IMG/VR virus record: IMGVR_UViG_3300033143_001962
Span: 185,798-249,797 of that record
Strand: one strand, 5' to 3'
Origin: a virus
DNA length: 64,000 nucleotides
The first letter of the stretch is position 1. Each line of letters opens with the position of its first letter. The notes beneath the pieces were generated by a model. That model saw only the letters and a program-made list of their open reading frames with translations. It had not been told where the DNA came from and searched no databases. Position numbers and translations under genes: made by a program. Below, piece after piece: positions 34,719-52,395 of the stretch.

Positions 34719-34998
34719 AAATCTCAAACCTATTGTTATCTAGTACTTCTGCGTTACCAATTAATACTGTTGGTGCGCTTATATCAAATGTGCCAGTAAA
34801 TGGAGATAGCTGGTCAACCCGTATTGTATATATCCCTGGCACCGCTTCTATCTGTAATACTTCTTTAATAAATGTATCGTTGCGCCATTTAAATGTACGC
34901 TCTGCAAACATTTCGTCGTTTACGTACACTCTGTAGTCTGGTGGAAATCCTTCCCAATCACAACGTACTTCAAAATTAACTTTAATAAACTGCTCCAT
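34705..34998 (-). CDS. Beta-rich small protein on a leaderless late message (97 aa)
   Basis: The ATG at 34996-34998 (MEQFIKVNFEVRCDW) lies exactly 5 nt after a GATAAATA box, so this start is chosen over 35022. The protein is strand-rich, with PPDYRVYVNDEMFAERTFKW and GIYTIRVDQLSPFTGTFDIS, like a small beta-sandwich of the carbohydrate- or virion-binding type. Function unknown; late structural role likely. Confidence 0.6.
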   Translation of the reverse strand: MEQFIKVNFEVRCDWEGFPPDYRVYVNDEMFAERTFKWRNDTFIKEVLQIEAVPGIYTIRVDQLSPFTGTFDISAPTVLIGNAEVLDNNRFEIYESK

Positions 34999-35003
34999 AG
35001 CAG

Positions 35004-35011
35004 TATTTATC
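35004..35011 (-). promoter_or_regulatory. Late promoter box GATAAATA, 5 nt before ATG
   Basis: Minus strand GATAAATA followed by CTGCT? spacing of 5 nt (34999-35003) and then ATG at 34998. No Shine-Dalgarno fits, so the predicted start of transcription is at or next to the A of the ATG. Confidence 0.65.
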
Positions 35012-35606
35012 CGTATATCCAATCTCCGACCATTTTGTACTTAATGTTAAATGCATTCATTAATAACTGCATTTCTTTTAAGCATTCGTGCTGCCCACCA
35101 CCACCTAGCAATGATCCACTAAGTGCTTTTAAATCACCTATGCTAATTTCAGGGAGGTAAATTCCATCATCGTACATCCAAGAGCCACCGTCGTCTCCGA
35201 CAAGCTTCTGGAATATTTCTACTCCGTTTTCTTGTTGTTCGATTATATCTCTGCTGTCGTTCATATCGTTCATAACCATATAACGCACTACTCTTATAAT
35301 AGTACTGTTATCAACACCTTGATCCATCCAGCCACGTAACCATGCATAACTCTTTTCTTTGTACGTAATGCTTTGTGCTATATCTTCATCTAACCCGTAC
35401 TCTACAAAATGTTCTGCAACTTCGTACGCTGTATCTTCTATACCTACATCTTCGCCATTGAAGAATGCTGTAATGTTAGGGTTCTTTTCGTTTAAGTAAT
35501 GCATACATCGTTCAATTGCATCTCTGTATCCGAACTGATCAGAGTCGTATGCTGGTTGAAAATCAACTAAAATTACACTATTGCCTCTTGCTTCAATTAG
35601 TTTCAT
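35007..35606 (-). CDS. 199-aa protein with possible very short targeting leader
   Basis: Begins MKLIEARGNSVILVDFQPAY, with LIEA at 3-6. The C-terminal GGGGQHECLKEMQLLMNAFN ends in a compact Cys-containing helix and KMVGDWIYG. The VILVDFQPAYD strand followed by Asp resembles a Rossmann-like start, but no family is certain. Overlaps the next gene by TAATG. Confidence 0.5.
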   Translation of the reverse strand: MKLIEARGNSVILVDFQPAYDSDQFGYRDAIERCMHYLNEKNPNITAFFNGEDVGIEDTAYEVAEHFVEYGLDEDIAQSITYKEKSYAWLRGWMDQGVDNSTIIRVVRYMVMNDMNDSRDIIEQQENGVEIFQKLVGDDGGSWMYDDGIYLPEISIGDLKALSGSLLGGGGQHECLKEMQLLMNAFNIKYKMVGDWIYG

Positions 35607-36487
35607 TATTTTCCGGCAGCGTCATTCATTGCGTTTTTAAGTATATCCATTTTAAGCTCTTGTACTTCGTCGTAATACTCTCTACCGTACTCTAATAATG
35701 CTTTAGCTAGTTTGGCTCTTGCCGCAGGCTCTTCTTTAAGTAATCGTTCAAGTTCACGTGCATTGTTAGGAACACTTGCCCAACCGTGATGCAATGTACC
35801 GTACGTGTTTAAGAATCTATCCATTGTTTTTCTGTTAAATCCTTCTTCAGCAACTTCTTCGATTGTTTCTGCTGCTTCAAGTGCTAGTTCCCTTGCACTT
35901 TGCGTACCACGTGTAAACGATGGGTTGCGTCCGTACTTGTCATAGCCTCGTGGTATTTCACGTAAGCCTGCGTAAATAGCATCTGCCATTTTATTTAACT
36001 TGTCTTGTATTTTTGGTAAGAATGTTTTATCCATGTACTCGTAAATATCATAATCACTGACAACACCAACTTCTTCTCTGTCCCTGACACTTGCGACATC
36101 ACTTGCTGGTTTGTCGCCTCTGTACTCATGGAATGTATTAAGGAAGTAAAACTTTCCGTTGCCTTTTTTAGCACCAAATCGTTTCTTAGCATCGGAGAAT
36201 TTTTGTTCAGTGCTTTCTTTAACCTTGTCGGTCTTTGGATCGTATGTCCAAACTGTCCAGCCGGAACCGCCCCACTTACCTTTACGTATTGCATAAGCTG
36301 TCCCATCGTTGTTAACACGGAAAATTATACCGTGTTCCATATCTTTCATGTTAAGCTTTGTAACTTCTTTTGGCGTGTCTTTATGCCCGATAGTGTACTC
36401 TTTAGCAACTCTCGCAGCAAGCTTCTTCGGAACACCCACTGATTCCAGCCCTGGTGTTGCTTCTATTAAAAATTCTGTTGCTTTCAT
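35606..36487 (-). CDS. 293-aa protein with 'MKATEFLIEA' capsid-targeting-like leader
   Basis: The first ten residues MKATEFLIEA are the closest match in the window to the T4 internal-protein leader; cleavage after Glu9 is expected. The body has GIIFRVNNDGTAYAIRKGKW and WTVWTYDPKTDKV, and a helical C-terminus (AKALLEYGREYYDEVQELKM). No enzyme motif recognised. Probably packaged in the head and delivered with DNA (inference). Confidence 0.6.
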   Translation of the reverse strand: MKATEFLIEATPGLESVGVPKKLAARVAKEYTIGHKDTPKEVTKLNMKDMEHGIIFRVNNDGTAYAIRKGKWGGSGWTVWTYDPKTDKVKESTEQKFSDAKKRFGAKKGNGKFYFLNTFHEYRGDKPASDVASVRDREEVGVVSDYDIYEYMDKTFLPKIQDKLNKMADAIYAGLREIPRGYDKYGRNPSFTRGTQSARELALEAAETIEEVAEEGFNRKTMDRFLNTYGTLHHGWASVPNNARELERLLKEEPAARAKLAKALLEYGREYYDEVQELKMDILKNAMNDAAGK

Positions 36488-39400
36488 ACGTAATGTCCTA
36501 TATCCATGTATAAATTTTTAAATGCCGCTCTCGCTGCACTCTTCGGGGCTCCTGTTCTGCCCATTTCGATTTCCATTGCTTCCATCCAACGCATTTCACA
36601 TTGCATATCAAGTATAGCATGTCTGTCTGCTAACATTTCTATTGCCTCGCGTTCGTTCTTAGGACTAGGTATTTGTACCTCGCCTGGCTTTCCAGTGTCG
36701 ACTGCTTCACCTGCTTCTGCTGCCGCTCTTGCTTCTGCACGTTTTGCCGCAGCTTTCTTTAAGTTTACTATAAGTTGATCTTTAGTAATCATACCTGCGT
36801 TAAATGCTGCAAACAATGTCATTGCTGTTTTATCATTTGCTCGTTTATGTGTTGGCAAGTTAGTTGCCATCTTATAAAGCTTCTTAGCGTATTCTTTCTT
36901 ATGTGCTTCTGGATCTGCTGCCACTGCATACGCAACAACAAATCTGTTAATCGAATGGGTAATAGCTTCTATATCGTGTATATAATCTGCACCGCCGGCT
37001 GCTCGAAACTCTATTCTATCAGCTTTAATGCCTACTGAACTGAACTTACCAAAATCAACGTTCTCAAATGAACTCATTAAGCTGTGACTTAAGTTGTTTT
37101 TCATCTTACCCATCATGTCTGCATAGCCTTTAGCTTTTGCAGGGCGATCTTTTTCATAACCTTGTGTGCTATCAATGAAGTCAGTTAACTTAGCCAGTGA
37201 GTTTACAGCAAATTCGCTGTACTCACGACCAAACTCTCTTGCGACTTTATTATCGCCGACCATTAATACTAACTTAGCGTAATCTAGTTTACTGTGATCT
37301 ATGTTCTTCATGCTTACGTTAACATGTAAGCCTGTAGACTCATTTGCGTACCCGCCATTTTGTTTAAGGAACTGCACTATATCTTCTACGTCAGCGATAC
37401 CTTCTTCGTATTCTGTAGGAGGCATAATAATTTCCATGCCTGCATCATCATCGTCGTTAGGCTTAACAGAACTGTCTGGCATTATTATCCAATCTTCTGA
37501 TGCTACTGCTAAATCATCAGCATCATCTCCAGGTTCGCCTTCGTTTTCTTCAACGGTACGTACTTCAACAGTGTGCCCTAATTGTTGTTCCATTTTACTA
37601 GCCATATTATGCGCTGCTTCTTCGTCGAAGCTTCCATTGCTATAATCACCAGTAAAGAAACTATGCTCACTGTATAATCTGCCATCGTACTCTCTACCAA
37701 TTTCTTTAAAAGATCTAATAGTGTCTTTAATGAACCAACTACCTAAACTATATGCTGAATCATCCGGGTATGCGCTTTCCCAGAAGTCTGCTTGTACTAA
37801 CTCTCTTAGAGGCTGTACTGCTTCATCTGCATCTTCTATAAATATTTCATAGTACAATGATAGGTACGGGTTTGTACCTATTTGTGGCGTTGGCCAACTA
37901 CCAACCGCTCCTATTTCTTTATACGCTTCCTGTGATTTAGATATAACTAATTTTGCCATTTCTTCAGTAAGTTCAATGTCATCATCGTCGCCTGTAATTC
38001 TAATTATAATGTCGTCCATGTCACCTGTCGTCGTCATGTTAACCATAGCTTCAACCTTTTCATCATCGTTATAATACGGTACATTAATAATATGTTTTAA
38101 TTGATCCTCAACCCATTCAGGCTCTTTCTCGGCACTAATCCATTCCATGTGCTCTTGTTCCATTTCTACCCAGACTTCATCATCGTCGCTGTTGTCGAAG
38201 TAGTCTTGTAAGTCTCTTAAAGATGTTTCATCTGTCACCTTAGGGTTACTGTCATCATCGGATGCTACGCATACTTCAAACTCTAATCCTATAACCGGAC
38301 GGGCTGTTTGTACTATTTTGTTTACTTGTTTTCGGAGGCCACCCGGTGTCATATCCAGTTCAAATAATGCACCTTCCATTATGTTTGATACTGTCTTGTA
38401 ACTACCGTTTGATTTAAGTAAAGGGGGAATGCCACCTTTATCTACTGTAAGGCCTAACTTGGCTGCTTCACGTTTAGTACTGTTCTCATCAACGTCTGCT
38501 GTCGTGTTAACACCTTTAACTATAATGCCTACACCTTCATTGACGCCTTTATCATTCCAACGTGTGAGGAATTCACCTTCGTCATCTACTACATCGAACG
38601 TAGCTTGCCCTGGTCTAATAAATTCCTTAGGACGTGGGTATTTGCTAAGTTTAAGTTTTGATAGTTTAATTACTTTTTCTAAAATGCCCGGATCAATATC
38701 TGCAAAATCCTTTATTAAATCAGGTTCATTGGCAAATGCTATAACCTTGACTTCGTCAGTTGGGTTATTGATATTATTAAACACAAAGGCAACACCAACA
38801 CTAACTTCGCTACCTAGCTGGATTGCTTTAAGTTGTATCTCTGGATCTGGGTTTTTAATGTATTTAATGTTCTGCAAGCCGCCATCTCTCAATACAACAG
38901 ACTGCAATTCTTTAGATGGATTGTCTATGTACTTTAAATTCCACGGACTTGTGTGTACAGCATCATACAACTCGGAGTCTGATGGATTGTCCATCAATGG
39001 AACCATGCCGTGTCGTGTTGCGTACTTATTGAGTACTTTCTTTATCTGAGGATAGGTGTCTACTAGCTCTTTCATTTCTTCTGGCGTTAACTCTTGATCT
39101 CGTGCGTTCATGTACGAGTTGCTTTGGAAATGGAATTGGAACTTACCTAGCTTTTTGGTTTGTATAATCCAAAGCGGACCTTGTTGATGATAATGCTCAA
39201 AATAATTGTCGCCGCCGTAGCTTGCTGCTGTACACCACTTAGTGCCTTTACCAAAGAAACAACTTGCTTCTTCAGTAGCTGGTACTACTATCTCAACATC
39301 TTTATCCTTGTACATTAATTCAGCTGCGGAGCTATCCAGGAACGCTTTCTTTTCTCTGCGGTCAGCTTCTCTATTTGATACTGTATCTTTTTCTTCAAAC

Positions 39401-40788
39401 GGTTCCAGCACATTGTATAAATCATCCAACGATAATCTGTTTAAGTCTCTGTGCTCTGGTGGTAGTTTTGATTTAACTTTTGCGAACTTCATTAGCTCTT
39501 GTTTAATTTGTCCGATATCTTCTAGCTTGTACTCGCCAGCTATGTATCGATTTGCTAACCACTGTATTGCTTTTGTGCTTGCTACTGCGAGCTTATTGAT
39601 TATTTCTAATGCGGTAACTTCAGTATGTGTATTACCAGTTTCTTCTTCGTAACGTGCAATTAACTTATCATTTAATTGATCTGCTACGTGCTGTGCTCTG
39701 TCTTCGTCAAGCATTTCGCCTTCGTGGAATTCATCACCGACTAAGTCAACACCAGTAAACCTTTGTATCATTTCCCAAGCTTCTTTATGCTTGCGTAATG
39801 CTAACAAGTTTCTAAATTGATCTATAAGTCCTTGGTTAGCTTCTTTGTAAAATTTCATTACTTCCATAGCACCTAAGTTGCCGCTGTACGCTGCTTCCAT
39901 TGTTGCTATATCAGATGCTTGTTCGTGCAATGAATCGTAGTCGTAATCATCAAACAGTGTATCTGCACCGCTGTATAATTCTTTTATGATATCTTCTGCT
40001 GTGCGACCACTTTCACCGTAGTTGTTAAAGTCTGCTGCGAGCTCTTGCTCTAAGTCTGTATCTACTTCGTCGTTCACGTGTTCTAAACTTAAATGTTCAT
40101 CTTCAAAGCTGCGTCTCTTATCCCATAGCTTATCAAAGTATCCATCTTTACGTAACATCTTAAATGCTAAGTTCTCTGGACCAAACTCACCGTTCTCACT
40201 TAGTCCTGCTTTTCTATAACGTTTTACAATGTCAAGCACATCATCAAGGTATTGTCTATTGTCGGTTGCGAGTGCTCTAATTGCAAGTTGCTTTAACTTA
40301 TTGTATTTGAAGTAACTTGCTTCTTCATCTACGTTTGCACGTTGCTTAGTTGGAAAACGGTTCCATTCGTTATTGAAAACACTATAGTTTCCTAAGCTCA
40401 CATGCGGTTGCGCTGCATCTTGTACATACAGTTCAACATCGTACCCCTTGATCTTAATATCGTGCTGATCATTATATTGGTACTTTTTAGAATCAAATAA
40501 CTCTCTGTATACTTCGTTGTCTGGTAGTTGAGAGAAGTCAACGATTAAATGCAAGTCAACGTCTGAGTGAGGCGTGTAACTATATGCTGCATTAGACCCG
40601 CTTAAAGTAATATCAACTAAAGACGTAAGTTCAACGCCGAGAAATTCACGAAAATGATCAGCTATACCAATCAAGGACTGATGAACCTCAGGACGCATCA
40701 CTTCATCTACGAAGAGTTGCGGATTAAGATCATTATTGAAATTAATTGCTTTTGTTATTTGAAACTTGTCAAGTTCTTCTAAATTCAT
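36484..40788 (-). CDS. Giant fusion: nucleotidyltransferase + GKGTKWC domain + amidoligase-like domain (1434 aa)
   Basis: At about residues 62-130 a Pol-beta-type nucleotidyltransferase is clear: LSGSNAAYSYTPHSDVDLHL (GS...DxD) with a third acidic strand YDVELYVQD. At about 505-560 is a CFFGKGTKWCTAAS...FHFQ domain found in many phage proteins. From about 830, IGLEFEVCV and STGLHVNVSM (about 1153) match the start and GLHVxV motif of amidoligase-2 (ATP-dependent carboxylate-amine ligases). A late box lies 5 nt upstream. Proposed as an injected or late enzyme that modifies host targets; activity untested. Confidence 0.65.
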   Translation of the reverse strand: MNLEELDKFQITKAINFNNDLNPQLFVDEVMRPEVHQSLIGIADHFREFLGVELTSLVDITLSGSNAAYSYTPHSDVDLHLIVDFSQLPDNEVYRELFDSKKYQYNDQHDIKIKGYDVELYVQDAAQPHVSLGNYSVFNNEWNRFPTKQRANVDEEASYFKYNKLKQLAIRALATDNRQYLDDVLDIVKRYRKAGLSENGEFGPENLAFKMLRKDGYFDKLWDKRRSFEDEHLSLEHVNDEVDTDLEQELAADFNNYGESGRTAEDIIKELYSGADTLFDDYDYDSLHEQASDIATMEAAYSGNLGAMEVMKFYKEANQGLIDQFRNLLALRKHKEAWEMIQRFTGVDLVGDEFHEGEMLDEDRAQHVADQLNDKLIARYEEETGNTHTEVTALEIINKLAVASTKAIQWLANRYIAGEYKLEDIGQIKQELMKFAKVKSKLPPEHRDLNRLSLDDLYNVLEPFEEKDTVSNREADRREKKAFLDSSAAELMYKDKDVEIVVPATEEASCFFGKGTKWCTAASYGGDNYFEHYHQQGPLWIIQTKKLGKFQFHFQSNSYMNARDQELTPEEMKELVDTYPQIKKVLNKYATRHGMVPLMDNPSDSELYDAVHTSPWNLKYIDNPSKELQSVVLRDGGLQNIKYIKNPDPEIQLKAIQLGSEVSVGVAFVFNNINNPTDEVKVIAFANEPDLIKDFADIDPGILEKVIKLSKLKLSKYPRPKEFIRPGQATFDVVDDEGEFLTRWNDKGVNEGVGIIVKGVNTTADVDENSTKREAAKLGLTVDKGGIPPLLKSNGSYKTVSNIMEGALFELDMTPGGLRKQVNKIVQTARPVIGLEFEVCVASDDDSNPKVTDETSLRDLQDYFDNSDDDEVWVEMEQEHMEWISAEKEPEWVEDQLKHIINVPYYNDDEKVEAMVNMTTTGDMDDIIIRITGDDDDIELTEEMAKLVISKSQEAYKEIGAVGSWPTPQIGTNPYLSLYYEIFIEDADEAVQPLRELVQADFWESAYPDDSAYSLGSWFIKDTIRSFKEIGREYDGRLYSEHSFFTGDYSNGSFDEEAAHNMASKMEQQLGHTVEVRTVEENEGEPGDDADDLAVASEDWIIMPDSSVKPNDDDDAGMEIIMPPTEYEEGIADVEDIVQFLKQNGGYANESTGLHVNVSMKNIDHSKLDYAKLVLMVGDNKVAREFGREYSEFAVNSLAKLTDFIDSTQGYEKDRPAKAKGYADMMGKMKNNLSHSLMSSFENVDFGKFSSVGIKADRIEFRAAGGADYIHDIEAITHSINRFVVAYAVAADPEAHKKEYAKKLYKMATNLPTHKRANDKTAMTLFAAFNAGMITKDQLIVNLKKAAAKRAEARAAAEAGEAVDTGKPGEVQIPSPKNEREAIEMLADRHAILDMQCEMRWMEAMEIEMGRTGAPKSAARAAFKNLYMDIGHYV

Positions 40789-40793
40789 ATCTG

Positions 40794-40801
40794 TATTTAT
40801 G
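40794..40801 (-). promoter_or_regulatory. Late promoter box CATAAATA, 5 nt before the giant-fusion ATG
   Basis: Minus strand CATAAATA, spacer CAGAT, ATG at 40788. No ribosome-binding site fits between box and ATG, predicting a leaderless mRNA. Confidence 0.7.
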
Positions 40802-40826
40802 CCTAACTAGACACTGTACAGAAATG

Positions 40827-41492
40827 TTATAGTCGGAAGTTGTTTATGAATTCGTTAAATTCGCGGATTAGTGATTCAGTTTGTACAACGCCTAAGCGTT
40901 TGTCAAACAATTTTTTAAGAGTTGCAGTTGGTTTCTTATCGTACATATCTGCTAATATTTGTGTACGCTGTTCATCGCTTGCATTTGCATACATATCGCG
41001 TATCTCTGTTGCACCTGTAATAGCTTGTCCTGCTATTGTAAATTCAACTGTCGGAGTTACTTCTACGTATATATGGCCATTAGCTACCGGTTGTGGGTTG
41101 TCTGTTAACCATTGTATAGCTGCTCTACTACCGTCTTTCTTAAGTGCAAAACCTTCTGCATCTTTAGTTTTACCGATTAAACGGTCACCATCTTTTCTGC
41201 TTAGTGCTACAATTAGAACAGTGTTCTTTTCATTGAATGGAAGTACTGCTTGTATTAAGTCTTTATTGTAAACACTTTTAGGTGCGATGAATTTGTCTAC
41301 TGGAATGCCCATCATCTTAGCAATTTTTTGTTTCTCTTTCCAAGCAAATGGATCTTTAGGACCTGTTGGTTTATCCGCAGATGCTACATACACCGCACCA
41401 TTGCCGAACTTACTTACAAGTGCATCGTAAGAAGCTTTGTGGCCTTTATGCATTGGTTGGAATCGTCCACCATAAATTACTATTGTTTTCAT
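40827..41492 (-). CDS. Nucleotidylyltransferase (HxGH type)
   Basis: 221 residues with IVIYGGRFQPMHKGHKASYD, the GRFQPxHxGH ATP-binding motif of the cytidylyl/NMN-adenylyltransferase superfamily, and a later TGATEIRDMY that resembles the ISxTxIR motif. Such phage enzymes join a nucleotide to a phosphate ester, for example in NAD synthesis or CDP-alcohol synthesis; the substrate is open. The C-terminus carries a helical tail (SLIREFNEFINNFRL). It is under a leaderless-type late box. Confidence 0.75.
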   Translation of the reverse strand: MKTIVIYGGRFQPMHKGHKASYDALVSKFGNGAVYVASADKPTGPKDPFAWKEKQKIAKMMGIPVDKFIAPKSVYNKDLIQAVLPFNEKNTVLIVALSRKDGDRLIGKTKDAEGFALKKDGSRAAIQWLTDNPQPVANGHIYVEVTPTVEFTIAGQAITGATEIRDMYANASDEQRTQILADMYDKKPTATLKKLFDKRLGVVQTESLIREFNEFINNFRL

Positions 41493-41496
41493 AGTA

Positions 41497-41799
41497 CTAT
41501 TTATTCGGTTCGAATGGTATTACTTCGGCTTCTTGTGTTGTGTCTAAATCATTAAAGCGATCAAGCTCACTGTAGAACATTTCAACAAGTGCATTAAAAC
41601 GTACAATAGGATCTTTGTACTTTTGCAACTCTCTGTCCATGCGCCATACTGCTTTGCGACAGCGTTCTGCTCCGCACTCAGTTACACACATGTCTTGTAT
41701 TTTTTGTTCGAGGATTTCGATACGTTTTTCGTGAAACGCATCCTCATTTGTTTGATATAGTTTTACTAAGTCTGTATACAGTTCGTTAAAATTGCACAC
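41497..41799 (-). CDS. Small helical protein with Cys pair (100 aa)
   Basis: MCNFNELYTDLVKLYQTNED start; KIQDMCVTECGAERCRKAVW carries three Cys in 11 residues; helical throughout and acidic at the end. Follows the Ig-like gene by zero bases. Function unknown. Confidence 0.5.
   Translation of the reverse strand: MCNFNELYTDLVKLYQTNEDAFHEKRIEILEQKIQDMCVTECGAERCRKAVWRMDRELQKYKDPIVRFNALVEMFYSELDRFNDLDTTQEAEVIPFEPNK
41498..41505 (-). promoter_or_regulatory. Late promoter box AATAAATA, 5 nt before the nucleotidylyltransferase ATG
   Basis: Minus strand AATAAATA, spacer GTACT, ATG at 41492. It overlaps the stop of the preceding gene. No Shine-Dalgarno. Confidence 0.68.
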
Positions 41800-42165
41800 T
41801 TAGTGGCCTAAAGAAACCTTCTGGATAGAACCTGCTGTGAAGTCAGTCACTGTAGCTCTAATCCAAGTATATTTTCCTTTAAGATTAATGAAGTCATTTA
41901 TTGTTACTGGTGTCACTGTGCCATCTACTGTTGCAATAGCTGAGTAATTAGTTGTATCTGGATCTGCATCTAACGTTGCTTCAATTAGCAACTTAGCATT
42001 GAAATTAGTTAAGTACCATGACGCTGTCTGTGTGTCTTTTGCCTTAGAGTAATAAGCCGATGCTTTTACTGGAACACCGCTGAATGTTGCTGCTAATCCA
42101 TCGTAGTTACCTACGGCTGTTCCGAATGTTGTTGCTGGTATTAAATTGTAAGATAAAGTTTTCAT
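41800..42165 (-). CDS. Virion-type beta-rich protein on a leaderless late message (121 aa)
   Basis: The ATG at 42163-42165 (MKTLSYNLIPATTFGTAVG) is 5 nt after a GATAAATA box and replaces an upstream ATG at 42180. Sequence is Thr/Ala-rich with regular beta strands (ATVDGTVTPVTINDFINL, WIRATVTDFTAGSIQKVSL), typical of small neck/tail or decoration proteins. Late expression fits a structural role. Confidence 0.6.
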   Translation of the reverse strand: MKTLSYNLIPATTFGTAVGNYDGLAATFSGVPVKASAYYSKAKDTQTASWYLTNFNAKLLIEATLDADPDTTNYSAIATVDGTVTPVTINDFINLKGKYTWIRATVTDFTAGSIQKVSLGH

Positions 42166-42169: not shown

Positions 42170-42823
42170 TTATTTATCACTAATTATCGTGTATATTTTA
42201 CTTGTTACGCCCGGGGCCATTAAATCTAGTACCACCTGCATCTTTGCATCATTAACATCAATGAAAAAATGTGTTTCTGTATGCTGCCACCAATATTTAC
42301 CAAATGCCCATCTTAGCAAAGACCCGCTCGAGCGTACATCAGCGTCATACGACGTTAAAAATTTAGCAATATTCTCACGCACATCCTTTCCACATTTAAC
42401 ATGCCTAAATGGAATGCGGTACTTGTACTCTGAGTTTTTCCTGTATATTGTTCCTGGCTCGCATGTAACACTAGCTTCTGTAATAACACCAGTTTTATCA
42501 AAAGCTAGTAACTCATGAATAGTATCTATGTTATTTGTGTACGCTATTGTTGTATTACGAGATGCAGCAAATCGCATATCTTCACTCTGCACTATGTAAT
42601 CATGTAAGTTGCATAAGTTATCAAGCAATAGTGCTAATCCCTCAGGAGCACGGTTGTGTATGTGATATTTTTCAGCCCGCGTACATATTCTCTCATGTGA
42701 CACCGGACGGTGCTTGGCCCCGCGTATAACCGAGGAGCCTGGCACACTTAATCTTACACTGTACTTGTACTTGTTAAAGAATAACTTATCAGTACTCTTA
42801 AGCTTTAGGTTTAAATTGGTCAA
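42170..42823 (-). CDS. Unknown conserved protein, TTG start (217 aa)
   Basis: Starts at TTG 42821-42823 within the ClpA gene end (26-nt overlap). Basic N-terminus with KLFFNKYKYSVRLSVPGSS; the middle EDMRFAASRNTTIAYTNNID and the end RWAFGKYWWQHTETHFFIDV look like a compact alpha/beta fold. No family assigned. Confidence 0.55.
   Translation of the reverse strand: MTNLNLKLKSTDKLFFNKYKYSVRLSVPGSSVIRGAKHRPVSHERICTRAEKYHIHNRAPEGLALLLDNLCNLHDYIVQSEDMRFAASRNTTIAYTNNIDTIHELLAFDKTGVITEASVTCEPGTIYRKNSEYKYRIPFRHVKCGKDVRENIAKFLTSYDADVRSSGSLLRWAFGKYWWQHTETHFFIDVNDAKMQVVLDLMAPGVTSKIYTIISDK
42171..42178 (-). promoter_or_regulatory. Late promoter box GATAAATA, 5 nt before ATG
   Basis: Minus strand GATAAATA, spacer ACAAT, ATG at 42165. 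The box overlaps the last codons and stop of the preceding gene. Confidence 0.68.
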
Positions 42824-45104
42824 GTACTACGTACCCTTCGTCGTCTGTATGCCCTGCAGGTGTTTTCGCAGGCAACATTGGAGGTGGTAACAATTGACTA
42901 GTAGTAAACGTAATTTTATCACCTTCGTAATCTACTCTAACAGTACAATCTGTTAACCCATCGAATAAAATCTTTTTACTTAACGGAGTTTTAATAATCT
43001 CGTTAATCTTTCTGTCGATTGGTCTTGCACCTAAGCTTGAATCGTAACCAGCTTCAGCAATATGTTGTACCGCTGCTTCTGTTATGTTCAATACAATCTT
43101 CTTAGCTTTTAAACTTTCCTTAAGTACGTTAATGAACTTAACCACAATTTTCTTAATGTTAATATCTTCAAGCTTCTGGAACTTAACAATACCATCAAGT
43201 CTGTTACGTAATTCTGGCTTGAAGAATTCTTTAGTAGCTTTATCTTCTTCGCCTGTACGTTCTAGTGATTTGCCAAAGCCAATGTTGTTCTGCTCGTTAG
43301 CCGATGCACCCAAGTTTGAAGTAAGTATAATAATACAGTTAGTAAGGTTAACTTCTTTACCACCTGCACTTGTAATTTTACCTTCATCAAGTATTTGTAA
43401 TAACACTGAACTAATATCTTGGTGTGCTTTTTCAATTTCATCAAACAATACAACTGAGTAAGGATGTTTACTTACATCACTAATAAGTTTACCGCCACCT
43501 TGTGATCCATCTTCAAATCCAACGTAACCCGGAGGTGCACCGATTAATGTACTAAGCGAATGTTTCTCTTGGTACTCGGACATATCGTAACGTAACAATT
43601 TCATGTCTAAGTTCGAGCTTAATAATTTAGCAAGTTCTGTTTTACCTGTACCAGTTGGTCCTAAGAATAAGAAACTAGCTACCGGCTTAGTTGCTGAACC
43701 TAACCCACTAAAGTTAACATAGATCTTCTCGAGTACTTGCTCGACGGCTTCTTCCTGACCGTACAATTTGTCATCTATGTTACTCTTTAGTGACATTAAG
43801 TTTGCGCTTTGTTCGTTACCTAGTCTTTCAACTGGAACGCTTGCCATCTTGCTAACTTGAGCTAGTACTTTTTCTTCGTTAATGATAGCTGACTTATTAT
43901 CTATCGCACGTTCTCTTGCACATGCCGCATCAATAATGTCAATTGACTTATCCGGATTCTTTCTGTCATGAATGTAACGTGTGCTTAAATCAACTGCTGA
44001 CTTAATAGCATCTGCTGTAATAGTAACACTATGGAACTCAGACAAACGTTTAGCAACACCAGTAATAATTTTAATAGTGCTATCGTAATCTGGCTCGTCT
44101 ACTGTTAAGTTAAAGAAGCGGCGCATAAGTGCCTTATCTTTCTCAAAGGATTCGTAGTACTCGTCCCAAGTAGTGTTTGCAATAACTTTAATCTTACCAC
44201 GTGTGATAGCTGGCTTCAACATGTTTGCAAAGTCTAAACTGCCGCCTGTAGTTGCACCAGCACCTTTCATAGTATGTGCTTCATCAATAAACAGTACTGC
44301 CTTGCCACTTGCTTCAAGTGCTGTAATAATCTTTTGGAACTTCTCTTCAAAGTCACCACGGTACTTACTGCCAGCTAACATGCTGCCAATCTCTAAGCTC
44401 CATACAGTGTGATCTTTTAAGAACTCAGGTACATCGTTAGCAAGGATCTTTTGTGCAAGTCCTTCTACGATTGCAGTTTTACCTACACCTGGGTCGCCAA
44501 TCATTAGTACGTTAGACTTAAACTTCTTAGCAAGTATTTCAATGGTGCTTTTAATTTCTTCGCCGCGGCCGATAAGTGGTTCTAAGTCACCGTCTTCTGC
44601 TTGTCTGCTTAAGTTAATACAATGTTCTTCAAGTAACTCTTCAGACTGTGTTGGTGTTAATACTACATTACCATCACTGTAATGTTCATTCCAGTAATCA
44701 GCAAATGAATCCCTATCATCAATGCCGTACTTAAGTATAAAATAATTTGCGTGGCTATTTGCTTCGCCTGTGATACTTAAAAACAAATCAACTGTAGTAA
44801 CATAACGTCGGTTGCTGAACAGTACCTGTGTTACTGCTCTATTAAATACACGTTCTAATGTGTTTGTACGCTTTGGTTGTGTGTTTGGCGGAAGTGGTGT
44901 AGTAAGTAAACTATCTAAGTACTCGTCTACATCATTGATCATGTCATCAATTTCAACGCCATAGCCTTTTAAGCAATTATAAAATGGCTGATAACTTAAA
45001 AGTGCTTCTAATAAGTGTTCCACAAGTACGTACTCGTGTCCTTTCTTCTTTGCTAAGTTAATAGCATAGTCTGTAATTTGTTCAATCTCTGGATTAATTT
45101 GCAT
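42798..45104 (-). CDS. clpA: ClpA-like AAA+ unfoldase
   Basis: 768 residues, matching ClpA (about 758). N-domain EHLLEALLSYQPF; first AAA+ module with GDPGVGKTAIVEGLAQ and Walker B KAVLFIDEAH; second module with GPTGTGKTELAKLLSS and VVLFDEIEKAH. Between the second Walker B and sensor region, NNIGFGKSLE puts an IGF tripeptide at the position of the ClpP-docking loop (IGL in ClpA, IGF in ClpX). No ClpP is encoded here, so docking to host ClpP is plausible. The C-terminus adds a Pro-rich tail. Confidence 0.88.
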   Translation of the reverse strand: MQINPEIEQITDYAINLAKKKGHEYVLVEHLLEALLSYQPFYNCLKGYGVEIDDMINDVDEYLDSLLTTPLPPNTQPKRTNTLERVFNRAVTQVLFSNRRYVTTVDLFLSITGEANSHANYFILKYGIDDRDSFADYWNEHYSDGNVVLTPTQSEELLEEHCINLSRQAEDGDLEPLIGRGEEIKSTIEILAKKFKSNVLMIGDPGVGKTAIVEGLAQKILANDVPEFLKDHTVWSLEIGSMLAGSKYRGDFEEKFQKIITALEASGKAVLFIDEAHTMKGAGATTGGSLDFANMLKPAITRGKIKVIANTTWDEYYESFEKDKALMRRFFNLTVDEPDYDSTIKIITGVAKRLSEFHSVTITADAIKSAVDLSTRYIHDRKNPDKSIDIIDAACARERAIDNKSAIINEEKVLAQVSKMASVPVERLGNEQSANLMSLKSNIDDKLYGQEEAVEQVLEKIYVNFSGLGSATKPVASFLFLGPTGTGKTELAKLLSSNLDMKLLRYDMSEYQEKHSLSTLIGAPPGYVGFEDGSQGGGKLISDVSKHPYSVVLFDEIEKAHQDISSVLLQILDEGKITSAGGKEVNLTNCIIILTSNLGASANEQNNIGFGKSLERTGEEDKATKEFFKPELRNRLDGIVKFQKLEDINIKKIVVKFINVLKESLKAKKIVLNITEAAVQHIAEAGYDSSLGARPIDRKINEIIKTPLSKKILFDGLTDCTVRVDYEGDKITFTTSQLLPPPMLPAKTPAGHTDDEGYVVLDQFKPKA

Positions 45105-45505
45105 TATTTTGCCTTCTTCTTTGCTTTCTTTTTAGCAACCTTTTTAACTACTGTACCGTTATGTAAGTACTCTATAGCTGTCCGGATTGCTCCGTCTGCA
45201 TCATTGATCTCAATCTTCTTATCTTTCCCGAGATAGTTTTGATAACTTATATGTATTATACTATCTTTTGAATCGGTTGTCGACTGTTTTGAATCCAAAA
45301 TAGCCGGATTAAAGAAGAAATGTGGCTTTATTTTGGTTACAAGTATCTTTGAATCTACGTTCACTTCAGGTGCTGTAATAACATCCTTAGTGGTTAGGTT
45401 CAATGCAATGAGCATTTCGATGCCAAGTTTTTGTACGGTTGTTGGCGTAGTGTAATCTACGTCTTGTGCTGGTGTTTTTTGTGGTTTTTCAATTATTTTT
45501 AACAT
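45104..45505 (-). CDS. 133-aa protein with Lys/Ala-rich tail, leaderless late start
   Basis: The ATG at 45503-45505 (MLKIIEKPQKTP) lies 5 nt after a GCTAAATA box; an earlier ATG (45523) overlaps dnaJ. The end KKVAKKKAKKKAK is DNA-binding-like. The middle has VNVDSKILVTKIKPHFFFNP and a helical DGAIRTAIEYLHNG. Function unknown. Confidence 0.55.
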   Translation of the reverse strand: MLKIIEKPQKTPAQDVDYTTPTTVQKLGIEMLIALNLTTKDVITAPEVNVDSKILVTKIKPHFFFNPAILDSKQSTTDSKDSIIHISYQNYLGKDKKIEINDADGAIRTAIEYLHNGTVVKKVAKKKAKKKAK

Positions 45506-45510: not shown

Positions 45511-45518
45511 TATTTAGC
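45511..45518 (-). promoter_or_regulatory. Late-promoter-like GCTAAATA box, 5 nt before ATG
   Basis: Minus strand GCTAAATA, spacer ATTTT, ATG at 45505. One base off the NATAAATA consensus, but the 5-nt spacing is the same as at the other sites. Confidence 0.5.
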
Positions 45519-45519
45519 T

Positions 45520-47336: not shown

Positions 47337-47524
47337 TCTTCTCTTTTTCCTTGTGTTAGTCTGTAGATTACAATAGCATCTTCATACGCTTCGAGTTGAT
47401 TGAACGTTTTCTTTAATGATGCTGCCGAGCGGCCTTTTCGTAATCCTTCTAATAGTTTATTTCTAAAGTACTGTAAGTCTTCATCGTTTACAATGTGACC
47501 TTCTGGCAATAATGTGTCTTCCAT
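47333..47524 (-). CDS. 63-aa helical protein between tctC and tctA
   Basis: Charged helices (LQYFRNKLLEGLRKGRSAAS, FNQLEAYEDAIVIYRLTQ) with no membrane segment, so it is not TctB despite its position. ATGA overlap with tctC. Function unknown. Confidence 0.5.
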   Translation of the reverse strand: MEDTLLPEGHIVNDEDLQYFRNKLLEGLRKGRSAASLKKTFNQLEAYEDAIVIYRLTQGKREE

Positions 47525-47533
47525 ATTTTAATC

Positions 47534-49102
47534 CTATGCGTAATCAATCTTACTTTTATTCTTATATCCCCATACTAGTACAAGTACGGTTAATAGAACA
47601 ATAGCTATAAATGTAGGATGCTGTAACAAATCTTTACCTGGCAATAAAGCTGCGTTGATTTGTCCTTGTCCTACATTGTATCCGAATAATTCTTTTAATT
47701 TAATTAACGGATAGCCTGCAACATTAAACAATTGAAATGTTTGTAGTGCAAGTTCCTCAATTCTGTACCCTAATATAAATCCTATCATTAGCGCGGGTCT
47801 GCTAAATCTGTACTTCTTTAATTGCAATCCTAGCACTGTAAAAAACACTAACAGTATAACATTTTCTACGCCATAAGTCGCGAATCCTGACGTGTAAGTT
47901 GCCCAAACTATTAAAGATAGTATAATGGGAAAGTAGTATTTATAGGGTACATAGGTGATCCTCGAAATATACTTAATCAAAACTAAGCAAATTATACCTG
48001 TTAATAATGTAGCTGCTAAGAATCCTATACTCAAGGCATTAAAGAAGTTTGAGTCTGCAAGTACACTTTCACTGTCTAGCGTAAGTTCAAATCCGATGGC
48101 ACCAAACAATCCTACAACCACGGCTGCAAATGGTGCACCTGGTATTCCAAAAAGTACTGTAGGTATCATGCTTGTTGCTTTCTGTGCGTTGTTGCTACCT
48201 TCTGGTCCTATAACACCTTTAATGTTACCGTTACCAAATTCCTCTTTCGGGTTGGATGCTACTGTTGCTCCGTAACTTAACCAGTCACTTATGCCACCGC
48301 TGAGACCAGGCAAGAAGCCAACTACACTTCCTATCAGTCCTCCCTTAAGCGACAGTTTCCATTCTTTAAAAGATATTTTAATACCATCTTTAACTTGTTT
48401 ATAATTGTCTGTTGCGTAGACACTAAGTTTAGAATCTTTTTGTAACGCAAGGATAAGTTCGGGCATAGCAAATATACCTGCCATAAGTGGTATCATTGGA
48501 ATACCGTGGCCTGCGTCACCTTCTAAAAATTCCCAGCCCATCGTAAAGCGTGGAGCTGCTGTCATTGGATCTGTGCCTACTAGGCTAAAGAATATACCTA
48601 AGGATAGTGCTATAAGTGAACGTACCCAAAATTTATTAGATACAAAACTAACAGTGACAAATGCCATTATACAAAACGCAAATAGTTCTGCTTGGCCAAC
48701 GCCACCTAAGTGTGCTGGCAGTAATAAAAAATCTTTATAATAAGGTAAGAGTAAGAATGTTGCTGCACCAAATATTAATCCATTAACAGTTGACGTTGTA
48801 ATAGCTGCTGATAATGCATAACTTGCCTTACCTTGCTGAGCAAGAGGGAAGCCGTCCACCATTGTTGCTGCGCTGCTATTAGCCCCTGGTATACCTAAAA
48901 GTATACTAGCAAAGGTGTCGCCTGTTGTACTTGCTGCGACAACAGACATAATAAAGACTACAGCGAGATAAGGATCAACTGCTTGCAATATAGCAATAAA
49001 CGGAAATAGCGCGACAAGACCTGTCGTTGCGCCTGCTGCCGGGATTATGCCAACAACAAGTCCGTAAAATGTGCCCAGGAATAAGGCTAATAAGTATGTC
49101 AT
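47534..49102 (-). CDS. tctA: Tripartite tricarboxylate transporter large membrane subunit (TctA)
   Basis: 522 residues, normal for TctA (about 500). About 11-12 hydrophobic helices. Signature segments: GLVVGIIPAAGATTGLVALF (Gly/Pro-rich pore loop), FASILLGIPGANSSAATMVDGFPLAQQGK, GLIGSVVGFLPGLSGGISDW, NAQKATSMIPTVLFGIPGAPFAAVV. It is the transmembrane channel of the proton/sodium-coupled uptake of citrate-like acids. TctB, the small 4-helix subunit, is not in the window. Stop codon is TAG. An AMG of likely host origin. Confidence 0.9.
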   Translation of the reverse strand: MTYLLALFLGTFYGLVVGIIPAAGATTGLVALFPFIAILQAVDPYLAVVFIMSVVAASTTGDTFASILLGIPGANSSAATMVDGFPLAQQGKASYALSAAITTSTVNGLIFGAATFLLLPYYKDFLLLPAHLGGVGQAELFAFCIMAFVTVSFVSNKFWVRSLIALSLGIFFSLVGTDPMTAAPRFTMGWEFLEGDAGHGIPMIPLMAGIFAMPELILALQKDSKLSVYATDNYKQVKDGIKISFKEWKLSLKGGLIGSVVGFLPGLSGGISDWLSYGATVASNPKEEFGNGNIKGVIGPEGSNNAQKATSMIPTVLFGIPGAPFAAVVVGLFGAIGFELTLDSESVLADSNFFNALSIGFLAATLLTGIICLVLIKYISRITYVPYKYYFPIILSLIVWATYTSGFATYGVENVILLVFFTVLGLQLKKYRFSRPALMIGFILGYRIEELALQTFQLFNVAGYPLIKLKELFGYNVGQGQINAALLPGKDLLQHPTFIAIVLLTVLVLVWGYKNKSKIDYA

Positions 49103-49809: not shown

Positions 49810-50030
49810 AAGTAAAATAGTCCTGGTATAATAATAAAAAATTGTGGTAAGAAGTTCAATAGTAAAGACTTTTCGTCCCATTTTAGTGCTACGTAAACCC
49901 AACCACTTGCACCTAATAACTGCAAGTAACTGTTCCACGGCGTAATTCCTAACACATGAAACACCATTGCTATTAATATAATAATAGCTGATGCCCATTT
50001 AATTACTGTTGTTGCTTTATCGTCTTTCAT
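49797..50030 (-). CDS. Three-helix small membrane protein (77 aa)
   Basis: Start ATG 50028-50030 (MKDDKATTVIKW) overlapping the upstream stop as ATGA. Three hydrophobic segments (ASAIIILIAMVFHVLGIT, YLQLLGASGWVYVALKWD, LLNFLPQFFIIIPGLFYLWL) in a SemiSWEET-like size and spacing. I associate similar small proteins with cyanophages. Transport function unproven. Confidence 0.55.
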   Translation of the reverse strand: MKDDKATTVIKWASAIIILIAMVFHVLGITPWNSYLQLLGASGWVYVALKWDEKSLLLNFLPQFFIIIPGLFYLWLK

Positions 50031-50629
50031 GGTTTGTACATTGTTACTAGTACATCGTCCCATATTGGCATTACATCATCGGGCACTGCACCGAACATTT
50101 TTTCACACCATTCTACTGTGAATGATTCCCACACTAACTTATTTTCGTAAGCGAATTTCAGCATTGCGTTATTTTGGACTTGTATTTCGTAGAACATTCG
50201 CTCAGTTGTACCGTACCATGAATAATCAGGATACGTGATTTCCTTAAATCCGCCTACCATTAGCCACCATGCGAAACTTACCATGTCTGGTCTGTATACT
50301 AACATTATCCATCCGTCGTCGCAATGATACTGTTTGATGCTATCTAACATGTACGCCCAATGATGGCTTTTTGCTAACATGCAGCCTGCGTCTGGATCTG
50401 TGTACAGTGTATGCACTTCTTCTGGAATAGCATCGTGTTCCATCCCTGGACCGAAGTATGCGCCGGCATGTCGTACATCACCGTTATTGAAACCATCGTC
50501 GTAGTATTCGCGCTCTGGGCTCCTGTCAGTTGTATTGACCCCATCCATTATTTCAAGCAATTGTGAGATTCCGCTCCACTTACTTCCGGGTGCACCTGTA
50601 AAAAATATTTTATTCGGTAATTCATTCAT
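50027..50629 (-). CDS. Sulfotransferase-like P-loop protein (200 aa)
   Basis: NKIFFTGAPGSKWSGISQLL at residues 6-25 resembles the PAPS-binding P-loop of sulfotransferases (GxPRSGT). WIMLVYRPDMVSFAWWLM in the centre is like the 3'-phosphate-binding Arg region (VRNPxDxxxS). The pattern is also found in marine T4-like phage proteins I remember. The sulfate acceptor is unknown. Weak late-type sequence (AAATAAC) lies upstream. Confidence 0.5.
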   Translation of the reverse strand: MNELPNKIFFTGAPGSKWSGISQLLEIMDGVNTTDRSPEREYYDDGFNNGDVRHAGAYFGPGMEHDAIPEEVHTLYTDPDAGCMLAKSHHWAYMLDSIKQYHCDDGWIMLVYRPDMVSFAWWLMVGGFKEITYPDYSWYGTTERMFYEIQVQNNAMLKFAYENKLVWESFTVEWCEKMFGAVPDDVMPIWDDVLVTMYKP

Positions 50630-50672
50630 GTTTCTATTTCCTTTTCGTTATTTACATAGCCTGCCGTCTGCT

Positions 50673-50680
50673 TATAAATA
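50673..50680 (+). promoter_or_regulatory. Late promoter box TATAAATA (plus strand), 5 nt before ATG
   Basis: Perfect T4 late box TATAAATA, spacer TATTG, ATG at 50686. It is on the plus strand, the opposite of most genes, and lacks a Shine-Dalgarno. Same 5-nt geometry as the minus-strand sites. Confidence 0.72.
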
Positions 50681-50685
50681 TATTG

Positions 50686-51213
50686 ATGCACAACCAAACA
50701 TTTCTTAATAATTATTTTTCCGAACACTGGGACTCGGCTATTTCGCAGTACATCTACAGCGGGTATTCAATCTTAGATAAAATTCTATCGACCCAATCCG
50801 TAATTGATGTTGGGTGCGGTACTAATCCATTTAAGGACAAAATACAAAATTTAGTCGGCATCGATCCAACTGATGTTGGTGCTGATATTGTAACAACCCT
50901 CGAAGATTACACGCCAAACAATAAATATGATGTTGCATTATGTCTGGGCTCTATTAACTTTGGCTCTGAAGATATTATAGCAAATCAAATTGAAAAAGTC
51001 AATTCATTACTTAATCCATCTGCTCGAATATTTTGGAGACTTAATCCAGGACTTGCAGATCACGATAGCGAGTTATGCGATAACATTGATTTCTATCCGT
51101 GGACATTTGAAAAGTTAGATGAGTTTGCTATACGGTATGGATTCAAACAAGTAAACTGTGCCGAAGATACCGATGGCGAGAATGTGCGTTTGTACGCAGA
51201 ATGGATTAGATAA
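50686..51213 (+). CDS. Class I SAM methyltransferase (plus strand)
   Basis: 175 residues from the ATG at 50686-50688 (a TTG at 50683 is in frame). SAM motif I VIDVGCGTNPFKDKIQNLVG, motif II acidic VGIDPTDVGAD, then YDVALCLGSINFGSEDII and FWRLNPGLAD. A small-molecule or protein/sugar O/N-methyltransferase is likely, not a DNA methylase (no DPPY/NPPF). One of two plus-strand genes; the 3' end overlaps the convergent gene by 8 nt. Confidence 0.75.
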   Translation: MHNQTFLNNYFSEHWDSAISQYIYSGYSILDKILSTQSVIDVGCGTNPFKDKIQNLVGIDPTDVGADIVTTLEDYTPNNKYDVALCLGSINFGSEDIIANQIEKVNSLLNPSARIFWRLNPGLADHDSELCDNIDFYPWTFEKLDEFAIRYGFKQVNCAEDTDGENVRLYAEWIR

Positions 51214-51811
51214 TACGAGCGTTGCGTTGCATACGCTTTAAATCTTCGTCTGTTGTTTTTTCGTGTTGTGTAGGAATTTGTGCTAGTTCGCGCATTGCAT
51301 TAACATCATCAGCTTTACTTTTGTAAATTGCTTTAGTTGGCATTCCTGCTGCGATTCGCATTTCATTTAGATCCATTTCGTGCGTTTCTCTATAAGTTTG
51401 TGGGCTAAGGATTAACGCTGATTTAAGTACTTCTTCATCAAATGGGTAATCAGCTTCTTCGAACGTAACAGTCCAATCTTTTAAAGTAAATTCAGTCAGA
51501 GTTTCAAAGTCTTCAAGCATTTCGCGGAGCTGTTCTATAATTTGTGTACGTCGTTTAATTTCAACAAACACTAAGTAACGGTTAGGTTCAATTTCGCCTG
51601 GGCTGCGATCAGCATCTATAATAAAGTCATATCCGCTTTCAAACCACTGTACTAAATCTTCTGCAACAACTTGGTTGTGTACATAGAAGCTTAATACGAT
51701 GTAAGCATCATCTTCACCTACTTTACTTTTAAACTCATCAACGTATACAGTAGGTTTAATCATCTCTACCATATCTTTATATTCTAATCCTTCCTTAAGC
51801 GAACGGGTCAT
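51206..51811 (-). CDS. Conserved T4-like phage protein (201 aa)
   Basis: Start at ATG 51809-51811 (MTRSLKEGLEYKDM), within the end of the preceding gene. Includes TVYVDEFKSKVGEDDAYIVL, WFESGYDFIIDADRSPGEIE and NRYLVFVEIKRRTQIIEQL. I associate this with a marine T4-like core protein without known function. The Asp-rich DADRSPGE segment may bind metal. Paired with the next gene. Confidence 0.6.
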   Translation of the reverse strand: MTRSLKEGLEYKDMVEMIKPTVYVDEFKSKVGEDDAYIVLSFYVHNQVVAEDLVQWFESGYDFIIDADRSPGEIEPNRYLVFVEIKRRTQIIEQLREMLEDFETLTEFTLKDWTVTFEEADYPFDEEVLKSALILSPQTYRETHEMDLNEMRIAAGMPTKAIYKSKADDVNAMRELAQIPTQHEKTTDEDLKRMQRNARII

Positions 51812-52382
51812 CTTCTGCCTCTTCCTGATCTTGTGCTTCTGCTTCCACTTCTTCTTCATCATTGTCAACTACTGCATCATCCTCTAAGTCCTCTTCGTAA
51901 CTTAGATCTAAATCTTCTAGGTCAATTTCTTGTCCTTCTAATTCAATGCTACCTGAACGTATGTCTGCAATTAAGTCTTTTGGCATTGTTATCTCAACTA
52001 ACCAAACTGGAACATCTTTAAGCTTTGGCTTTTTAATCTCATCTCTGTAATCATCATTTGATTCGATTTTCATTGGAATTTTCATCTTAGTCTTCTTCCA
52101 TTTAATTTTGCAATCAAACGGTAGTAAACGTTTAGCTCCACGTGGGTCTGGCATTAAATGTGCTGGCCATAAAAATGTGCAAGCTACTGAATAACGTGTT
52201 ACTTCAGGACCTTCGACTAATTCGCCTAATATCCAGTTCTTAAATGCATATAAGTCAACTTCGTCTAGAACTGCTTCGTAGTCTAATAACGTAGTTAAGC
52301 TGCCGTCACTCATATAAATATCTTTTATATTCTCAGCAACATTCCAATAATCGGTGTCTTTTGTAAACAGTTCTTCATTCAT
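51795..52382 (-). CDS. Conserved T4-like phage protein, leaderless late start (195 aa)
   Basis: The ATG at 52380-52382 (MNEELFTKDTDYWNV) is 5 nt after CATAAATA; the open frame to 52466 is not used. Segments: YAFKNWILGELVEGPEVTRY, FLWPAHLMPDPRGAKRLLPF, VPVWLVEITMPKDLIADIRS; acidic C-terminal tail. I associate the MPDPRGAKRLLPFD region with T4-like marine phages. Function unknown. Confidence 0.6.
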   Translation of the reverse strand: MNEELFTKDTDYWNVAENIKDIYMSDGSLTTLLDYEAVLDEVDLYAFKNWILGELVEGPEVTRYSVACTFLWPAHLMPDPRGAKRLLPFDCKIKWKKTKMKIPMKIESNDDYRDEIKKPKLKDVPVWLVEITMPKDLIADIRSGSIELEGQEIDLEDLDLSYEEDLEDDAVVDNDEEEVEAEAQDQEEAEDDPFA

Positions 52383-52387
52383 AGTGT

Positions 52388-52395
52388 TATTTATG
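52388..52395 (-). promoter_or_regulatory. Late promoter box CATAAATA, 5 nt before ATG
   Basis: Minus strand CATAAATA, spacer ACACT, ATG at 52382. No Shine-Dalgarno is possible in the 5-nt spacer. Confidence 0.7.

Follow-up and report, generated by a model that had tools for sequence, protein, structure and literature searches.

In the T4-like jumbo phage represented by the 249,797-bp virus record G000, the ATAAATA boxes are very probably late promoters of the gp55 type that are wired in two ways: leadered with a Shine–Dalgarno (SD) sequence, or leaderless (or with a leader of 0–3 nt) without one. This reading is drawn from the DNA sequence. The leaderless second class of late genes was found across related phages, and as far as we could find, it has not been reported earlier. 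The window analysed here is a 64-kb stretch of the record. The gp23 of G000 shows 62–68% identity to those of Vibrio 2.275.O, Phosso, PA5oct, and CBB; 20 kb compared with phage records by megablast gave no match, and the protein at 47534–49102 had only distant, uninformative matches.

The preliminary description had placed seven boxes in the window exactly 5 nt before an ATG (N5), and all seven were recovered at those places, six as exact NATAAATA-N5-ATG and one, at 45505, as GCTAAATA-N5-ATG. The three boxes that it had set against them also lie farther upstream with an SD in between, as shown in the last three lines below (window positions).

35004..35011, minus strand: late box GATAAATA, 5 nt before ATG 34998
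34705..34998, minus strand: 97-aa gene, predicted leaderless, no PHROG match
40794..40801, minus strand: late box CATAAATA, 5 nt before ATG 40788
36484..40788, minus strand: 1434-aa gene, predicted leaderless, phrog_36119, unknown function
41498..41505, minus strand: late box AATAAATA, 5 nt before ATG 41492
40827..41492, minus strand: 221-aa cytidyltransferase-like gene, predicted leaderless
42171..42178, minus strand: late box GATAAATA, 5 nt before ATG 42165
41800..42165, minus strand: 121-aa gene, predicted leaderless, unknown function
45511..45518, minus strand: variant late box GCTAAATA, 5 nt before ATG 45505
45104..45505, minus strand: 133-aa gene, predicted leaderless, no family
52388..52395, minus strand: late box CATAAATA, 5 nt before ATG 52382
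51795..52382, minus strand: 195-aa virion structural protein, predicted leaderless, phrog_12928, head and packaging
50673..50680, plus strand: late box TATAAATA, 5 nt before ATG 50686
50686..51213, plus strand: 175-aa gene, predicted leaderless, lone plus-strand gene among minus-strand genes
9445..9452, minus strand: leadered-class late box, 22 nt before ATG 9422, SD caggag
57126..57133, minus strand: leadered-class late box, 25 nt before ATG 57100, SD gggaga
61487..61494, minus strand: leadered-class late box, 24 nt before ATG 61462, SD aagga

The putative promoter box sometimes provides the preceding gene with its stop codon: the TAA of the box at 35004..35011 doubles as the stop of the gene at 35007–35606, the final TA of the box at 41498..41505 forms a TAG stop with the following G, and the box at 42171..42178 overlaps the stop of its upstream gene. 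Several N5 genes lie close behind a same-strand gene, and longer transcripts could also cover them. The gene at 50686 is alone on the plus strand and would therefore need its own promoter; for isolated-strand genes and divergent pairs (173330 minus/173377 plus), the box is the only evident promoter. An opposite-strand neighbour precedes 9 of 30 N5-class genes versus 94 of 442 genes overall, a difference that is weak alone and comes from a rough gene call.

That the fixed spacing goes beyond chance, as had been argued from the seven sites, was borne out by scanning the whole record. An ATG lies exactly 5 nt past the box at 22 of the 82 ATAAATA boxes, compared with three occurrences of the reversed pattern, and a first-order Markov control for ATAAATA-N5-ATG gave a mean of 1.92 and a maximum of 5 in 60. 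Each other spacing within 0–40 nt occurs only 0–4 times (average ~1.5; Poisson p = 1.1e-17), and the excess at 5 nt is seen across phages as well. Reading frames of 50 codons or more begin at all but one of the 22 ATGs. At −12 to −6, no 7-mer is more enriched than ATAAATA in G000 and in its close relatives G018 and G019, the variant boxes CTAAATA and ATAAGTA are likewise enriched 5 nt before ATG, and the start codon at spacing 5 in three genomes is ATG in 59 cases versus one GTG and one TTG.

The two classes also differ in their ribosome-binding signals. An SD core precedes 1 of 21 N5 starts in G000 versus 10 of 19 starts with the box 14–40 nt upstream, in agreement with the earlier claim that no SD fits in the N5 class; the corresponding values are 2/20 versus 25/42 leadered starts in G019 and 1/18 versus 22/33 in G018. 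SD use in these phages is low overall (27–30% of ORF starts). The proposal of two late promoter classes is thus strengthened by the absence of SD from one class only, together with the genome-wide and cross-phage spacing excess. A leaderless class with a host-type −10 (TATAAT) was also considered and rejected; its counts were weak and broad, without the sharp peak seen for the late box.

It has been reported that the T4 late box spans −13 to −6 (PMC2988020) and that gp55 reads A−12, A−9, and A−8 (PMC7892883). With the box at −13 to −6, +1 would therefore fall on the A of the ATG in the N5 class. The bases around this position carry a signature, with a pyrimidine at −1 in 72 of 80 N5 starts versus 821 of 1792 other starts (46%; p = 5e-16) and no bias at −2 between the same groups. 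At leadered boxes of G000, A occupies +1 in 82%, and the +1 base is a purine in 88% in G000, 78% in G019, and 70% in G018, again as a sequence signature; since A is favoured there at leadered boxes too, both classes probably share one start point. A gp55-like late sigma is encoded at 28673–29713 of G000 (phrog_12791, E = 5.4e-72; phrog_234, E = 1.5e-22). Searches for gp33 and gp45 with Pfam PF16805 and PF02916, which are T4-centred profiles, gave no match in this possibly incomplete record, and PA5oct gp214, examined as a clamp candidate, had no match and resembles an exonuclease. Among 42 distinct orthologous upstream sequences, positions −30 to −19 carry 0.02–0.3 bits, −35 itself lying just outside the stretch counted. 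The 8-bp TATAAATA-type box takes the form NATAAATA here, its −13 position being degenerate, as it is in cyanophages.

The N5 pattern is repeated in the close relatives, with 18 open frames in G018 and 20 in G019, and is present in 12 of 12 relatives examined, these two included. In Pelagibacter phage HTVC008M, 9 of 45 boxes are at N5, the N5 ATGs are annotated gene starts in 7 of 7 cases checked, and an extended motif, ATAAATAGT, is common to both promoter classes. A possible link to virion genes is suggested by the head and packaging gene at 52382, by the N5 genes of HTVC008M, which include gp2, a gp48-type tail tube cap, a baseplate wedge, and the tape measure, and by one of the eight N5 sites of PA5oct, at which gp262 begins (144985), its product being a structural protein identified by MS; many other N5 genes are of unknown function. 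Against this, the class was absent from the named relatives 2.275.O, Phosso, and KVP40, in which boxes are present, and CBB has only 2 N5 sites. In the cyanophages, the N5 sites number just 2 in S-PM2 and 3 in P-SSM2, near the control.

For the 52382 gene, the exact box-N5-ATG is kept in 51 of 80 orthologues, and a box with at most one mismatch lies within 12 nt of an in-frame ATG in 77 of 80; their N-termini vary and the box shifts along with the ATG, the spacer sequence being weakly conserved. Orthologues of the 40788 gene have a box 4–9 nt upstream in 40 of 53 loci, those of the 42165 gene in G018 and G019 belong to the same N5 class, and that of the 45505 gene (L329) has CTAAATA at 6 nt. 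Conservation of the spacing but not of the spacer sequence, together with the −1 pyrimidine and +1 A on the ATG, supports the predicted leaderless start. The 5-nt spacing holds in G000 but not as a universal rule: spacings of 4, 6, 7, and 8 nt also occur in relatives, and the leader is therefore perhaps not zero everywhere.

In the proposed mechanism, host RNA polymerase with the phage gp55-like sigma would recognize the box (−13 to −6) in the manner of a −10 element and start transcription six bases after it. In the leadered class, the start would lie 20–30 nt before the gene and the leader would carry the SD; in the leaderless class, it would be the A of the ATG, with a leader of 1–3 nt in some relatives. 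An mRNA starting at AUG would therefore be translated from its 5′-terminal AUG without SD pairing, and the genes concerned would be expressed late.

Alternatively, the box could act in RNA as an AU-rich, non-SD translation enhancer, set at a constant distance from the start codon on longer mRNAs, rather than as that gene's promoter. The low overall SD use would suit such an enhancer, and about one-third of N5-class genes sit 4–14 nt past a same-strand gene, where read-through is possible; however, the same box also occurs 20–30 nt upstream with an SD, the isolated plus-strand gene and the divergent pairs need a promoter, and this phage, which has gp55, uses a box that matches the T4 late promoter exactly. 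The −1 pyrimidine, the shared +1 A, and the extended motif at leadered boxes are likewise features of transcription starts, and we consider the enhancer quite improbable. A late promoter whose start lies 1–4 nt off the A, leaving a very short leader or an AUG without its first base at some genes, is held to be equally improbable; the other spacings in relatives speak for it, but the peak in G000, G018, and G019 is sharp at 5, and the −1 pyrimidine and +1 A fall exactly there. The genome is AT-rich and two of the 22 genes (89845 and 90132, plus strand) are clear paralogues, so chance, composition, or inheritance from duplicated genes also has to be weighed; this is contradicted by the reversed-pattern, spacing, and Markov counts, the N5 genes of G000 are otherwise unrelated by BLASTP (one pair only), and the same spacing occurs in other lineages, leaving it a negligible probability.

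Under the two-class promoter reading, the leaderless late class might form part of a late translational switch driven by phage factors, which we regard as unlikely. Ribosomes would be shifted from SD-dependent initiation by factors such as a phage bS21 or a T7-like kinase that targets initiation factors and bS1; leaderless late messages would gain over host and early phage mRNAs, and box-only operon genes would then have their own late transcript as the sole template for translation. HTVC008M, PA5oct, G003, G008, G018, and G019 carry bS21, which is absent from T4, KVP40, S-PM2, and P-SSM2 and was not found in G000; a strict association with the class was rejected as a rule, 2.275.O and Phosso having bS21 without it. 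A kinase-like gene (phrog_15752) at 169224 of G000 is itself of the N5 class. Two late classes that depend on a single promoter type, one class being leaderless, seem to operate in a large set of T4-like phages. The way in which gene starts are annotated and transcripts modelled would change in many marine and freshwater jumbo phages, and a late preference for leaderless translation in phages, with any role of phage-encoded bS21, becomes testable.

T4 late transcription, with gp55, the gp33 co-activator, and the gp45 clamp, is the textbook system. The phage studied here resembles it in the box, the predicted distance to +1, the gp55-like sigma, and the boxes before virion genes; no conserved upstream element was seen at −30 to −19. 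However, T4 boxes mostly lie 21–29 nt before an ATG with an SD, and no 50-codon frame opens 5 nt past any of the 65, whereas the present phage has a second class of boxes right next to the ATG; its −13 position is not restricted to T, and neither gp33 nor gp45 was found. The late motif reported for cyanophages S-PM2 and Syn9, NATAAATA (PMC2984593), has the same degenerate −13 and the same core. In Deinococcus-Thermus, a −10 region adjoining the ORF gives leaderless mRNA (PMC12340547), with similar features, namely a −10 element a few bp upstream of the start codon, the absence of an SD, a spacing requirement, and a 5′-terminal AUG; there, a cellular sigma and cellular genes are involved (TANNNT), while here the box is that of a phage late sigma, and the genome also contains a leadered class. 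Lambda cI is a leaderless phage mRNA (PMC9031893) that likewise starts at AUG, but it is a single repressor gene, whereas the class described here unites some 20 genes through a single type of late promoter.

The preliminary description placed a late-promoter box exactly 5 nt before ATG in seven window genes, and all seven sites are present, six as NATAAATA-N5-ATG and one as GCTAAATA-N5-ATG; the three boxes cited in contrast likewise lie 22, 25, and 24 nt upstream of ATG, each with a ribosome site. The window corresponds to 185798-249797 of record G000, which is 249,797 bp long. The entire record contains 82 ATAAATA boxes, and ATG follows exactly 5 nt past 22 of them (3 for the reversed pattern), with 0–4 at each remaining spacing from 0 to 40 nt. 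In a first-order Markov control, 60 trials averaged 1.92 such sites and never exceeded 5. Frames of at least 50 codons are opened by 21 of the 22 ATGs. Among all 7-mers compared at −12 to −6 before ATG frames, ATAAATA was the most enriched, with 20 observed against 0.46 expected (estimated from nearby offsets), and the variants CTAAATA and ATAAGTA were both within the top ten.

Genes with the box at 5 nt (N5 class) differ in translation signals from those with the same box about 20–30 nt from ATG (leadered class). A Shine–Dalgarno (SD) core occurs in 1/21 N5 starts in G000, which upholds its reported absence between box and ATG, and in 2/20 and 1/18 in the related records G019 and G018, versus 10/19, 25/42, and 22/33, respectively, of starts with a box 14–40 nt away (Fisher p 1e-3 to 2e-5 in the three genomes). 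N5 start codons in these genomes comprise 59 ATG versus one GTG and one TTG, which agrees with expectation for 5′-terminal AUG initiation. In about 10 of 30 N5 genes, box variants included, the stop codon of the preceding gene lies inside or at the end of the box, as the TAA of aTAAata or as TA plus the next base (TAR), which shows a compact arrangement; overlaps in the window include, among others:
35004-35011, box/stop overlap
41498-41505, box/stop overlap
42171-42178, box/stop overlap

For 50686, a lone plus-strand gene amid minus-strand genes, the box is the sole evident promoter; the divergent pair 173330-/173377+ has boxes about 30 nt apart and no other evident promoter. Three successive genes at G000:89845-91701 plus (L003:9845-11701) each have their own box 5 nt before ATG (ATAAATA, ATAAATA, and TTAAATA, in order); the first two are paralogues and the third is radical-SAM-like. 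Another N5 gene, G000:168508-169224 minus (L006:8508-9224:-), resembles the phage protein-kinase family phrog_15752, and since kinases of the T7 type modify translation factors (PMC9031893), it may bear on how leaderless messages are translated.

Orthologues of the structural gene at 52382 (proteins 53–78% identical) were read at 80 IMG/VR loci, and in 77 an in-frame ATG lies no more than 12 nt from a box, with one mismatch allowed. Of these boxes, 51 perfect ones and 5 with one mismatch are at exactly 5 nt, the remainder mostly at 7–8 nt. Where the N-terminus is longer or shorter, the box shifts along with the ATG. When 42 distinct upstream sequences are compared, spacer positions other than −1 hold about 0.3–0.5 bits each and the flank from −30 to −19 holds 0.02–0.3 bits, so what is kept is spacer length, not sequence; the box columns, chosen by selection, were not counted as evidence. 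The 1434-aa gene at 40788 has its box 4–9 nt away in 40/53 loci; therefore, a very short leader seems tolerated. In G018 and G019, where the 52382 gene has close orthologues, open frames at exactly 5 nt number 18 and 20, with at most 5–6 at any other spacing. The pattern was present in 12/12 relatives searched, these two included. Spacing is looser in the related records G003 (4–6 nt) and G008 (4–5 nt).

In T4, the 8-bp late box lies about one helical turn upstream of the start, with T at −13 (PMC2988020), and gp55 captures bases −12, −9, and −8 (PMC7892883). Given this geometry and five spacer bases, +1 is predicted on the A of the ATG, as proposed earlier, and two independent sequence tests agree. 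Bacterial RNA polymerases prefer to start on a purine (+1) that follows a pyrimidine (−1). A −1 pyrimidine occurs in 72/80 N5 starts from six phages, not fully independent because these phages are related, versus 821/1792 other ATG starts (p=5e-16), and −2 is no different (37/80 versus 869/1792). In the leadered class, where the sixth base past the box is not forced by an ATG, it is A in 82% (G000), 68% (G019), and 70% (G018) of cases. A start displaced by a few bases is set against these signatures and is very improbable; that the box is an AU-rich enhancer acting at the RNA level is just as doubtful, the box also occurring in the leadered class. Because the start-position signature is shared and the extended motif ATAAATAGT is common to both classes in the cultured Pelagibacter phage HTVC008M (small numbers: 9 and 7), the two late-promoter classes described earlier look like one promoter type in two placements.

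The putative late sigma factor and the capsid protein of this phage are as follows:
G000:12147-13337, major capsid protein, gp23-type
G000:28673-29713, gp55-like protein, 346 aa (phrog_12791 "sigma factor for late transcription", E=5.4e-72; phrog_234 "late sigma transcription factor", E=1.5e-22)

The capsid protein shares 62–68% identity with its counterparts in Vibrio phage 2.275.O, Sinorhizobium phage Phosso, PA5oct-like Pseudomonas phages, and the CBB/GAP32 group, and relatives of T4 DNA polymerase, gp46, gp47, and gp55 are recognisable. Profile searches of the record gave no match for gp33 or gp45; the record may be incomplete, given its linear form and the 293–344 kb size of its closest relatives. 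Most likely, a gp55-bearing polymerase would initiate late messages in two ways, with an SD-carrying leader or directly at AUG. The sequence itself shows the box, its spacing and conservation, the SD contrast, the initiator signature, and a gp55 gene, and from these we infer promoter use, the exact +1, late timing, and translation of the leaderless ends.

About 20 small ORFs, located at G000:4519-10311 minus and also at 156721-156921- and 192559-192705-, have a common short motif, [VIMF]W.[KR]L, and G018 and G019 have similar ORFs; several are fused to part of a core T4-like protein, and they look like tagged mimics. ORFs of this kind, and one without W.KL, include:
G000:5602-6003, minus, gp55 fragment with the motif, 133 aa (phrog_234, E=8e-22)
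G000:156721-156921, minus, major capsid fragment with the motif (G018 copy phrog_138, E=1.5e-11)
G000:5224-5457, minus, DNA polymerase-like in appearance (YDISSFYPG), no PHROG match
G000:6000-6311, minus, RecA-like in appearance (P-loop), no PHROG match
G000:4700-4969, minus, 89 aa, lacks W.KL, matches the major capsid protein N-terminus (PF07068, E=2e-9; phrog_138, E=9e-9)

The short gp55-like protein, present besides the full-length one, may act as an additional late sigma or as a decoy.

Among named phages, HTVC008M has 9/45 boxes at 5 nt, and in its first 50 kb 7/7 N5 ATGs are annotated start codons; its N5 genes include the DNA end protector (gp2 in T4), baseplate tail tube cap (gp48 in T4), baseplate wedge subunit, baseplate wedge initiator, and tape measure. 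In PA5oct, one of the N5 sites opens gp262, a structural protein detected by mass spectrometry. CBB has 2 sites, and S-PM2 and P-SSM2 have 2 and 3, near control level; scans of KVP40, 2.275.O, and Phosso gave none. Genes for bS21, a protein whose phage form has a reported link to late-stage replication (PMC9723584), were found in HTVC008M, PA5oct, G003, G008, G018, and G019, and were absent from T4, KVP40, S-PM2, and P-SSM2 and not found in G000; 2.275.O and Phosso have bS21 and no N5 class. bS21 may be connected with the N5 class, but this distribution does not support a general rule.

No earlier description of a leaderless class among T4-type late promoters turned up in full-text literature searches; as most subscription papers fall outside their coverage, novelty is not thereby proven. 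Phage messages without a leader are already known, lambda cI among them (PMC9031893); in Deinococcus-Thermus, a −10 element directly before the ORF is an established source of leaderless mRNA (PMC12340547); and cyanophages are known to have the NATAAATA late motif (PMC2984593). T4 differs, with no 50-codon frame at 5 nt and a broad peak at 21–29 nt instead.
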